This document shows, piece by piece, positions 21,622-25,409 of a DNA stretch of 42,650 bases. How positions within the stretch are numbered: the stretch's first letter is position 1; each line of letters begins with the position of its first letter. Location of the stretch: positions 1 to 42,650 of the forward strand of contig DAIDKH010000038.1 in assembly GCA_027450145.1 (NCBI GenBank), given 5' to 3'. The notes under the pieces were generated by a model that was not told the DNA's origin, did no database searches, and saw only the letters and a list, made by a program, of their open reading frames with translations. A program made the translations under genes and the position numbers. This DNA is from Chthonomonadaceae bacterium. Its GTDB lineage: Bacteria > Armatimonadota > Chthonomonadetes > Chthonomonadales > Chthonomonadaceae.

Positions 21622-21732
21622 GCAACAACTCGACTAGTTTACGCGTTATAAAGTTGGTTGAGTTATAACACCAGCAACGGCAATTATCTTATTCGCGGGG
21701 TGGAGGCTGGTTACCCGCAGACGGAACGATCA

Positions 21733-22017
21733 ATGTCTCGCACATTAATTGTGGCAGTACGCAAAACCTGGAGGGTTAATCCGGGTATGGTGTACGCGCT
21801 AGTGAAGATACATGATGGATCGCTCAAAGTTGTTCAGTCGTGCCCGGCCGGCACGAGGTTCTGGGATGTAGATGAAGTGGAGGTCCTGCTGACAGGGGAC
21901 AAAACCAGGAAGATATATTCCGAAATTCGTTGCGAGGCAATGCAGTGGTGCATGGAAGAGGGGCGAGCGCGGTTAGCTGCGCGAAGCAAATCTCATCCTG
22001 CTGGGCTTGTAGCGTAG
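21733..22017 (+). CDS. hypothetical protein
   Basis: I do not recognise this protein of 94 residues from the ATG at 21733. It contains LIVAVRKTWRVNPGMVYALV, a Cys-containing FWDVDEVEVLLTGD segment and a charged helical end, with no signal peptide or membrane segment. The frame is open back to a TTG at 21658, giving 119 residues, and neither start has a good ribosome binding site. A promoter at 21592-21621 and a bidirectional terminator at 22029-22073 bracket it as a single-gene unit. Confidence 0.55.
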   Translation: MSRTLIVAVRKTWRVNPGMVYALVKIHDGSLKVVQSCPAGTRFWDVDEVEVLLTGDKTRKIYSEIRCEAMQWCMEEGRARLAARSKSHPAGLVA

Positions 22018-22028
22018 AGCGATTATAT

Positions 22029-22073
22029 AATGTTAAGCCTCTCCGGAAGAATACTTCGGAGAGGCTTAACATT
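22029..22073. terminator. bidirectional terminator
   Basis: A long, nearly perfect stem (22029-22049 with 22054-22073, one bulged G, loop AATA) lies between the convergent hypothetical gene and greA. TTTT follows on the plus strand at 22072-22075. Confidence 0.85.
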
Positions 22074-22099
22074 TTGCGGCTTGCAACACGTGATGCTTG

Positions 22100-22588
22100 C
22101 TACATATGTATTTCTGCTATCTCGAATTCGGCTACGCCATGGGGCAAGTGTACCTCAACGGTATCTCCTTTGGATCTGTGCATCACTGCCTTGCCGACCG
22201 GAGATAAACTAGAGATCTTATCGTCGCCATTCGCTGTCGCTGCGTCGGTTATAGTAACTGTGAACTCGTCCTCAGGATCATCAACACTACGCAGCGTAAT
22301 TCGGGAGCCTATGGTTACCACCGTACTCCCTGCGGCGGCATCATCCTCCACCACATGAGCTTTAAGGAGCAGTGCCTCCAGTTCGGCTATCCTGCCATTA
22401 AGTATAGCCTGGGCCTGTCTTGCTGCCTGATATTCAAAATTTTCCGACAGGTCACCATACTCGCGGGCTGTCTGTACGGATTGACGGATGGCAGGGAGTT
22501 CTACGATTTTGAGGCGGCGAAGCTCTTCTTCCTTTTGTCGTTTGCTGCTTTTTGTTAAAATTATCTCGTCGTGCTGCATTTCTGCCAA
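22100..22588 (-). CDS. greA: transcription elongation factor GreA/GreB family
   Basis: GreA enters the secondary channel of RNA polymerase and stimulates cleavage of backtracked transcripts. The 162-residue protein has the N-terminal coiled coil (about 15-80) with the tip sequence AREYGDLSENFEYQAARQAQ, whose acidic DLSEN residues act at the polymerase active site. The C-terminal FKBP-like domain (about 85-160) includes ISSLSPVGKAVMHRSKGD. The start may be TTG at 22588, close to AGGAG, or the ATG three codons on. It stands alone with its own promoter and a leader attenuator. Confidence 0.93.
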   Translation of the reverse strand: MAEMQHDEIILTKSSKRQKEEELRRLKIVELPAIRQSVQTAREYGDLSENFEYQAARQAQAILNGRIAELEALLLKAHVVEDDAAAGSTVVTIGSRITLRSVDDPEDEFTVTITDAATANGDDKISSLSPVGKAVMHRSKGDTVEVHLPHGVAEFEIAEIHM

Positions 22589-22623
22589 TAATCTCCTGCC
22601 TTGAAGTTAAAGAAGACGCCGAT

Positions 22624-22668
22624 AAAAAACAATATGCGAACCACTGCCGAGGCAAGTGGCCGCACTTG
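22624..22668 (-). terminator. intrinsic terminator inside the greA leader (attenuator)
   Basis: On the minus strand the leader folds into a long interrupted stem (22630-22668) made of CAAGTGCG / CGCATATTG, CCACT / AGTGG and GCC / GGC around a TC loop, followed directly by six T residues (22629-22624). The fold begins at the predicted transcription start, so a short RNA of about 40-45 bases is expected when it terminates. Confidence 0.7.
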
Positions 22669-22673
22669 GGCTA

Positions 22674-22702
22674 ATACTACCATACAAGTAGGTTCCTGTC
22701 AA
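22674..22702 (-). promoter_or_regulatory. strong sigma70 promoter of greA
   Basis: TTGACA (22697-22702) and TAGTAT (22674-22679) on the minus strand are exactly 17 bases apart. The -35 box is perfect. The transcription start is predicted at about 22667. Confidence 0.75.
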
Positions 22703-22839
22703 ATTCTGCTGGCGATGCTGGTCCTGGAAGCGTGAACAGAAACTAGGTTGTCCTACCGCGCAGATTCCTCAATACCGCACGCACCGAGATAAACCTTCAT
22801 GAAAGGCAGCCGGCGCCGATGACGCCTGAGTTAACGGGT

Positions 22840-23049: not shown

Positions 23050-25386
23050 TTATGCCTGTGGCGATGCCAATTGAAGTGTGATGACGATAGATTTTGACAC
23101 GGGCGTATTACTCTTATCAGCCACATTATCCAGTGCCGCAAGAACATTGGTCTCCGGGTAGTAGGCAGCTGCGCATCCTTCAGGAATTGAATACTCAACT
23201 ACCTTAAATTGACGGGCGGTACGGACTTCACCTCGAAAGTGGCTGGTAATATCCACCCAATCACCCGCTTTAAAACCGCGCCGCGCAATGTCGGCACTGT
23301 TCATGAAAATGACCCTTCTACCTCCACTAATGCCGCGATAACGATCATTAAGCCCGTATATCGTTGTGTTGAACTGGTCGTGGCTGCGAATAGTCATTAG
23401 CAGAAGTTCCCCGTCCGCCAGAGGTTGTTCCTGAACGTGCATGGGAGTGAAGTGTGCCTTACCGTCTGATGTGCGAAAAACGAGATTAGCTGCTGCGTTT
23501 GGGAGATGGAACGGACCCTCTTTCACACGCATGTTAAAATCGGTAAAGCCAGGAACAACGCGTGCAATGTGATCGCGAATTCGGTCATAATTGCCAATTA
23601 AAGCATCCCAATTTACCGCAGAGCGGGAGCCCAATACGGCTTTGGCAATTCCCGCAACTATAGCTGGCTCACTAAGCAGAAATGGTGAAGCAGGCGCCAA
23701 CGTACCCCGCGAGGCGTGAACCATGCTCATCGAGTCCTCTACTGTTACGAACTGGTCTCCACTCGCTTGCACATCCCGTTCAGTGCGCCCTAGGCAGGGG
23801 AGTATAAGCGCCTGATTTCCCGTAATAAGGTGTGCGCGGTTCAGTTTCGTGGAGATGTGAACCGTGAGCCTGCATTGTTGAAGAGCCTGGGCAGTCATCT
23901 GAGTATCTGGCGTTGCGGAGAGAAAATTACCGCCCATTCCAATGAAGACCGAATTCGGGTGCGAGTGCATGTAGCGAATTGCGTCTACCGTGTCCAGACC
24001 ATGTTCTGTTGGTGGGCTAAAATCGAATTCACGACCCAATGCGTCGAGGAATTGGCCGCTCATTTTTTCCCAAATGCCCATTGTTCGGTCGCCTTGCACA
24101 TTGCTGTGGCCACGTACCGGGCACAGACCTGCGCCTTGCTTTCCAAGGTGACCGCGCATCAACGCGATATTAACCAGTTGTTGTATAGTGGCAACTGCCT
24201 GTTTGTGCTGGGTAAGGCCCATGGCCCAGCAATAAATTACACGCTCGCTGGTAGCAAGGATCTCCGCTGCCTCTCTAATCTGAGGCTGTTTTAAGCCAGA
24301 TAGCCGTTCAATATCTTGCCAACTCATGCTTTTTATTGTGGTTACCGCTTGCTGCCAGCCACTTGTGTGTTGGTCAATAAATGCTTGGTTTATTACGGTG
24401 CCTGGTGACGCCTCTTCCAACTCTAGTAGAACCTTTTGCAAGCCTATTGCCAGGGCCGCATCTCCGTTGATTTTTACCTGAAGATAAAGAGACGCAATTG
24501 GCGTGCCGCCAGTTGCAATCGATAGTGGCTGCTGAGGATGTTCAAACCTTAAAAGCCCGGGCTCCGGCAGCGGATTAATCGCTACGATCTTGCAGCCGTT
24601 TTTCTGCGCGAGGGCAAGTGCCGTCATCATCCTGGGGTGGTTAGTACCAGGGTTCTGCCCAAAGATAAAGATCGCCTGAGCGTGGTAAAAGTCGTCTAGA
24701 AGTACCGTACCTTTGCCTACACCGATAGTCTCAGAAAGCGCGGCGCCACTTGACTCGTGACACATATTAGAGCAATCTGGTAGATTGTTTGTACCAAACT
24801 GCCTAACGAATAGCTGGTAAAGGAACGCCGCCTCGTTGCTCGTTCTGCCAGACGTATAGAACATAGCTTCATTAGGTGATGAAAGGGAATTCAGTTCAGC
24901 GGCAACAAGCTTGAACGCATCGTTCCAGTCTATCGGCTGGTAGTGACTACTGCCTGGGGCAAGCCACATCGGGTTCGTAATTCGGCCCTGCTTGCCCAGC
25001 CAGTAATCTGATTGATGAGACAGTTCCTGAACGGAATATTTCTGGAAAAACTCTGGGGTTACTCGCTTGAGAGTAGCCTCCTCTGATATGGCCTTGATAC
25101 CATTCTCGCAAAACTCAAAGCGCGATCTATGAGAATCTGGGTCGGGCCACGCGCAACCAGGGCAGTCGAAACCAGTCTTCTGGTTCAGGTGCAACCATGT
25201 AGCGGCGCTACGTCGAACACCCATTTCAGTTAGGGAGAACTGAGAGCTGACAAGTACCGCAGGAATGCCTCCTGCGTACTTCTTCGATGGTGAGACAGCA
25301 GCGTCATCCCGTTCTTCCGGTGAAACTATTGAAACCGACTGAATGTCCAAACCATTGCTTTTGTGCGGCATAGTTGGATCGGTCAT
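23050..25386 (-). CDS. FdhF/YdeP-type molybdopterin oxidoreductase alpha subunit (formate dehydrogenase-like)
   Basis: The 778-residue protein belongs to the 'oxidoreductase alpha (molybdopterin) subunit' branch related to formate dehydrogenase H and YdeP. Near residue 75 is FDCPGCAWPD, the reduced cysteine motif of this branch in place of a full four-cysteine iron-sulfur motif. SNMCHESSGAAL at about 207-218 holds Cys209 where formate dehydrogenases carry selenocysteine or cysteine as metal ligand. FGQNPGTNHPRM and a C-terminal molydopterin dinucleotide-binding domain (about 650-770, LLMTIRSHDQFNTTIYGLND) complete it. Substrate is most likely formate, by analogy and because fdhD precedes it by 23 bases. 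The ATG at 25386 has GGGGGAG 6 bases upstream. Confidence 0.9.
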   Translation of the reverse strand: MTDPTMPHKSNGLDIQSVSIVSPEERDDAAVSPSKKYAGGIPAVLVSSQFSLTEMGVRRSAATWLHLNQKTGFDCPGCAWPDPDSHRSRFEFCENGIKAISEEATLKRVTPEFFQKYSVQELSHQSDYWLGKQGRITNPMWLAPGSSHYQPIDWNDAFKLVAAELNSLSSPNEAMFYTSGRTSNEAAFLYQLFVRQFGTNNLPDCSNMCHESSGAALSETIGVGKGTVLLDDFYHAQAIFIFGQNPGTNHPRMMTALALAQKNGCKIVAINPLPEPGLLRFEHPQQPLSIATGGTPIASLYLQVKINGDAALAIGLQKVLLELEEASPGTVINQAFIDQHTSGWQQAVTTIKSMSWQDIERLSGLKQPQIREAAEILATSERVIYCWAMGLTQHKQAVATIQQLVNIALMRGHLGKQGAGLCPVRGHSNVQGDRTMGIWEKMSGQFLDALGREFDFSPPTEHGLDTVDAIRYMHSHPNSVFIGMGGNFLSATPDTQMTAQALQQCRLTVHISTKLNRAHLITGNQALILPCLGRTERDVQASGDQFVTVEDSMSMVHASRGTLAPASPFLLSEPAIVAGIAKAVLGSRSAVNWDALIGNYDRIRDHIARVVPGFTDFNMRVKEGPFHLPNAAANLVFRTSDGKAHFTPMHVQEQPLADGELLLMTIRSHDQFNTTIYGLNDRYRGISGGRRVIFMNSADIARRGFKAGDWVDITSHFRGEVRTARQFKVVEYSIPEGCAAAYYPETNVLAALDNVADKSNTPVSKSIVITLQLASPQA

Positions 25387-25409
25387 CTCCCACTCCCCCA
25401 TATTGTGTG

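Follow-up and report, generated by a model that had tools for sequence, protein, structure and literature searches.

The question raised by this locus is whether greA of a Chthonomonadaceae bacterium is transcribed from a promoter that leads directly into a terminator, as in Escherichia coli, in which the greA leader yields the short GraL RNAs. A first-pass annotation of the window (the whole stretch of DNA analyzed, 42,650 nucleotides in length, which is contig 38 of a 4.14-Mb genome) had proposed a near-ideal greA promoter with a start at about 22667, followed by a hairpin and six T residues that still lay upstream of the greA start. An intrinsic-terminator structure, one of the features of a GraL-type attenuator, was found between the greA promoter and the greA ribosome-binding site (RBS). 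The leader is best read as an early, partly read-through intrinsic terminator near the transcription start, which very probably controls greA; this degree of confidence does not extend to feedback by GreA.

The greA gene and its leader in the window

The product of the gene (Table 1) matched Pfam families GreA_GreB_N (1e-21) and GreA_GreB (3.6e-16), with the TTG-start version as the query, and its top matches in NCBIfam were GreA models, with scores slightly under the cutoff. The ATG is more likely to be the start than the upstream TTG, because the latter codon reads TTC in the sister species (G001); it is GTG in another congener (G002). The distance from the Shine-Dalgarno-like AGGAG to the ATG was 13 nt. 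A second GreA-like gene on another contig of the same genome encoded a product that was 31% identical, with E replacing D at the first tip position, and no promoter or T-run matching those of greA was found in the stretch upstream of this paralogue. An ORF convergent to greA, potentially encoding a small protein, had no Pfam match; similar-looking ORFs convergent to greA were observed in several other genera, even where flagellar genes were not adjacent. Where greA and this ORF converge, their 3' ends are separated by a palindrome that is probably a bidirectional terminator.

Table 1. Features of the greA locus in the window and related leaders in other genomes
Feature	Position or loci	Strand	Description	Basis
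greA	22100..22579	-	159 aa, tip motif GDLSEN; start ATG 22579, alternatively TTG 22588 (162 aa)	
Shine-Dalgarno-like AGGAG	22593..22597	-	3' of terminator	Sequence; kept in congeners
Spacer and T6, predicted RNA 3' ends	22624..22633	-	ATTG 22633-22630, TTTTTT 22629-22624	
Terminator hairpin	22634..22665	-	Extreme 5' end of the RNA	Fold, congener conservation, covariation
Predicted transcription start	~22667 (range 22666..22668)	-		Spacing to the -10 hexamer
greA promoter	22674..22702	-	TTGACA 22702-22697, 17 bp, TAGTAT 22679-22674, TG before -10	
Molybdopterin oxidoreductase gene	23050-25401	-	Upstream of greA, same direction	
Small ORF	21658-22017	+	~100-120 aa, convergent to greA	
Palindrome	22030-22074		AATGTTAAGCCTCTCCGGAAGAATACTTCGGAGAGGCTTAACATT, long and near perfect	
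Other-family greA leaders with AAGCACTGGTT..AACCAGTGCTT stem	L097, L098, L101, L103, L107, L112, L124, L126		Mostly near the RBS	
rplU upstream regions	L140, L141, L147, L148, L149, L155, L161			
Further promoter-to-terminator leaders	L136, L138, L139, L142-L146		Rrf2-type, holin-like, radical-SAM-like, purA, prepilin-like, oxidoreductase, topA	

The greA promoter matched the consensus at 10 of 12 positions. Promoter-like sites were about as frequent in the sequence as in shuffles (3 observed versus 2.8 expected), and the promoter alone was thus not above chance. The hairpin, which begins 2 to 3 nt from the predicted 5' end of the RNA, had a minimum free energy of -18.9 kcal/mol (z = -3.0 versus dinucleotide shuffles), and 2 of 200 shuffles were equally stable. 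A simple terminator scan did not flag the hairpin, probably because the scan needs a T-run 0 to 2 bases past the stem and the gap here is 4. Given a promoter count no higher than in shuffles and a hairpin absent from the scan, the sequence alone is no proof, and comparison decides. Direct reading of the sequence bore out the proposed promoter, the predicted start, the hairpin, and its six T residues; what makes this element convincing is the comparison. The short RNAs of about 40 to 45 bases that had been predicted agree with the 39 to 44 nt computed here for the terminated RNA, which is likewise a prediction.

Conservation of the leader in the genus and family

Alignment of the region around the greA leader in three species of the genus revealed a sharply bounded pattern of identical columns. 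Upstream of the -35 element, 30 of 204 columns were identical, barely above the level of unrelated DNA. Identity rose to 24 of 29 columns in the promoter, fell to 3 of 8 between the -10 element and the hairpin, and reached 29 of 32 in the hairpin (with the three variable columns in or beside the loop) and 10 of 10 in the spacer and T6; 34 of 44 columns were identical from the T-run to the ATG. As judged from this alignment, the footprint of conserved promoter, stem, and U-run shows that selection preserves the three as a unit, and the unit at greA is therefore under purifying selection.

Among 17 genomes of the family, 16 had an orthologue of the greA gene in the window, and the promoter-hairpin-T-run layout recurred at greA in 11 of these 16, representing nine genera, which answered the suggestion that greA leaders of related genomes be compared. 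All eleven leaders contained a TTGACR-17-TGTGGTATCTT-like promoter followed immediately by a hairpin and a T-run, and the consensus across the family was TTGACA-17-TGTGGTATCTT. A single conserved sigma-70-type promoter was recognized at greA by a scan that sees this type only and not promoters of other sigma factors. The layout was degenerate in G008 and G015 and was not found at greA in G004, G009, and G013. In the sister family f3, the greA promoter was present and a hairpin with a T-run was absent.

Folded from the predicted starts, the eleven hairpins had energies of -8.7 to -21.9 kcal/mol. Stem sequences varied between genera (GTGCGAA/TTCGCAC, ATATGAATGCC/GGCATTCATGT, AGCGAATCGTCC/GGACGTTTCGCT, and others). 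A plain MAFFT alignment of the eleven leaders misaligned the hairpins of G005 and G003, and pairs were therefore counted on arms of the lower stem that had been aligned manually. In this alignment, 93% of cells were paired and five of six pairs had changed on both sides somewhere; pairing was lost when the partner arm was slid. Shuffle values for this covariation are flattering because the register was handpicked to pair. Within these aligned arms, the leader hairpin is shown to be structurally conserved, with compensatory changes.

These comparisons bear on what the hairpin is for. It might be a fortuitous palindrome or might serve to terminate transcription of the upstream gene, and the molybdopterin oxidoreductase gene in the window does run in the same direction as greA. 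Either origin is extremely improbable: the greA promoter lies between that gene and the hairpin, and a chance palindrome is opposed by the conservation among congeners and the covariation in the lower stem. The upstream gene is a same-strand molybdopterin oxidoreductase gene in the genus and is divergent in four relatives (G005, G006, G012, and G014), and the hairpin is therefore not the terminator of the upstream gene, an assignment that these divergent neighbors rule out. As the gene orders show, the leader element remains at greA when upstream genes differ.

The terminated RNA might instead be a small RNA acting in trans. GraL provides the precedent, having been reported to act on nudE (PMC6829880). 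Such a function is very unlikely here, as the stem sequence varies between genera, with the structure alone being kept, and as hardly any single-stranded seed region exists outside the hairpin.

Stem-loops within a few nucleotides of the 5' end, such as that of ompA, stabilize transcripts. The hairpin could likewise protect the greA mRNA from 5'-end-dependent decay, with termination secondary, absent, or additional. The stem began at +1 to about +4 of the predicted starts in most of the 11 genomes (about +10 in G007), the placement that stabilizers need, and three leaders had weak (G005, GTTGGTTTT; G006, GTTCTGTTTT) or interrupted (G011, TTTTATTTT) U-tracts. A stabilizer requires no U-run, yet the spacer and T6 were invariant in the genus and a run of T5 to T8 was present in most of the 11 genomes. 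Stabilization, whether alone or alongside termination, is rated unlikely, although the two roles of the hairpin could coexist.

An antiterminator in the 5' arm was also considered. The candidate hairpin CAAGUG-CGGC-CACUUG was strong in two of the three congeners (G000 and G002) and weak in the third (G001), yet pairing of this kind was not significant across the nine genera (P = 0.33).

Early terminators at other genes and in other families

The genome was searched for the strict pattern TTGACA N16-18 TANNNT N28-58 TTTTT, which misses promoters with weaker hexamers. Six places were found, namely, greA and five others; four of the five (all except L091) were folded, and none of these four had a hairpin comparable to that of greA. 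In several Chthonomonadaceae genomes, rplU (ribosomal protein L21) was preceded by a promoter and then by a hairpin and T-run within about 50 nt, as in G016 (stem CTGGCTCCG..CGGAGTCAG plus T-run); the rplU leader of the window's own genome had only a weak hairpin. The rplU leaders shared the promoter, hairpin, and T-run layout with the greA leader of the same family, whereas their stem sequences were unrelated to it. The same layout was found in the family before topA, purA, genes for an Rrf2-type regulator and a holin-like protein, and others. These genes were named by reading translations rather than by family search, and the sites were taken by eye from a list of pattern matches, so that their number is at least that given in Table 1.

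Early termination is thus a general device in Chthonomonadaceae, and GreA is not proven as its sensor: with such terminators also preceding rplU and other genes, GreA is not singled out by the layout in itself. The greA terminator might accordingly be one case of a family habit of placing weak terminators after strong promoters, constitutively leaky and setting a low, fixed greA level without regulation. This is a narrower version of the preferred explanation and overlaps with it, the sole difference being the lack of regulation. It is a distinct possibility, with which the shared layout at rplU, topA, purA, the Rrf2-type gene, and others, as well as the failure to find a conserved antiterminator, is consistent. 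Against it, attenuation recurs at greA in several phyla (PMC2965389), which makes greA look like a preferred target, and GreA-dependent control has been demonstrated in E. coli (PMC6829880).

Leader hairpins were also found at greA in other families of Armatimonadota. Those of family f15 had GCCCCG..CGGGGC stems with UUUCGUUU-like or TTTCGTTT-like tails. In families f8, f36, and f19 and in one f15 genome, the greA leader carried a GCACUGG stem with UUAUNUUAU near the RBS; the AAGCACTGGTT..AACCAGTGCTT stem was conserved in sequence among these genomes, mostly with a TTATNTTAT-like tail, and these leaders had no match in Rfam. The greA stems of all four families were unrelated in sequence to the GUGCGAA-stem element of the window. 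Armatimonadota greA may thus have gained sequence-unrelated leader hairpins repeatedly. Taken together with the Proteobacteria, bacilli, and Clostridia, early termination might then be a convergent, GreA-sensitive way of setting GreA levels, a tentative generalization that is on the doubtful side.

Proposed control of greA and comparison with known leaders

Under the preferred reading of the leader as an early, partly read-through terminator, many polymerases leaving the greA promoter would meet a complete terminator within the first ~45 nucleotides. Those that terminate would release the predicted 39- to 44-nt RNA, and the remaining polymerases would read through to produce greA mRNA, translated from the RBS just downstream. 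The terminator should be leaky because the U-run lies 4 nt past the stem. Its role would be to keep greA expression low, and the efficiency of termination would most likely report RNA polymerase pausing or backtracking and hence GreA activity. We infer that the element terminates transcription in vivo, that it is leaky, and that it controls greA dosage. Feedback by GreA on its own leader is plausible, if not quite probable; the acidic residues in the GreA tip (GDLSEN) would do no more than permit GreA-driven termination.

In E. coli, about one-third of greA transcripts extend beyond the terminator in the leader, and GraL RNAs are 37 to 47 and 49 to 59 nt in length (PMC6829880). Catalytically active GreA reduces read-through of the E. 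coli leader in vivo and not in vitro, and full repression requires both the stretch from +1 to +18 and the hairpin sequence (PMC6829880). Strengthening of termination by GreA at its own leader needs catalytically active GreA and an extra factor, by a route that is unexplained. Attenuators of greA are already on record from Proteobacteria, Bacilli, and Clostridia, with greA/rnk in seventh place in a ranking of gene families by attenuation; the greA leader models of that study include a clear antiterminator, and Armatimonadota are not named in the passages on these leaders (Naville and Gautheret 2010; PMC2965389). Searches of the literature on Term-seq with greA and on small RNAs of Armatimonadota yielded nothing useful.

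The claim that the design is the same as that of GraL held in part. As in E. coli, an intrinsic terminator (with U7 in E. coli) comes directly after the greA promoter and upstream of the greA RBS, this arrangement is conserved, and the predicted RNA is similar in size to GraL. Recognizable homology was not found. As a positive control, the E. coli greA leader (L095) scored 127.5 bits against the Rfam family RF01769, "Enterobacteria greA leader." Positions 22560 to 22720 of the window, searched with E values up to 10, gave no RF01769 match and a single chance miRNA match, and RF01769 was matched neither by ten loci from the family nor by ten from other families. Membership of RF01769 was therefore ruled out.

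The architecture also differed. One recognizable promoter was present here, in contrast to the two overlapping promoters (P1 and P2) of E. coli, and the spacer of 4 nt between stem and U-run is a further difference. The hairpin begins at about +3 here and after about 18 nt in E. coli; no comparable stretch of ~18 nt before the hairpin was found in the 11 genomes, in which the onset lay at +1 to about +10 of the predicted starts. The 5' stretch required in E. coli for full repression by GreA therefore does not exist in this leader. In contrast to the greA leaders described by Naville and Gautheret, no significant antiterminator was found here across genera, the form covered being the 5'-arm hairpin.

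With no 5' stretch and only a stem and a U-run, the leader is a natural, minimal, and independently built version of that of E. coli. If GreA alters read-through here, a hairpin and U-run suffice; if GreA has no effect, the mechanism in E. coli requires the additional sequence of the leader there. The device itself is already known elsewhere, and Armatimonadota are added to the phyla with early terminators at greA. Because neither the window leader nor its relatives match RF01769, the greA leader of the window is, as judged by sequence comparison, a separate instance of this known device in another phylum.
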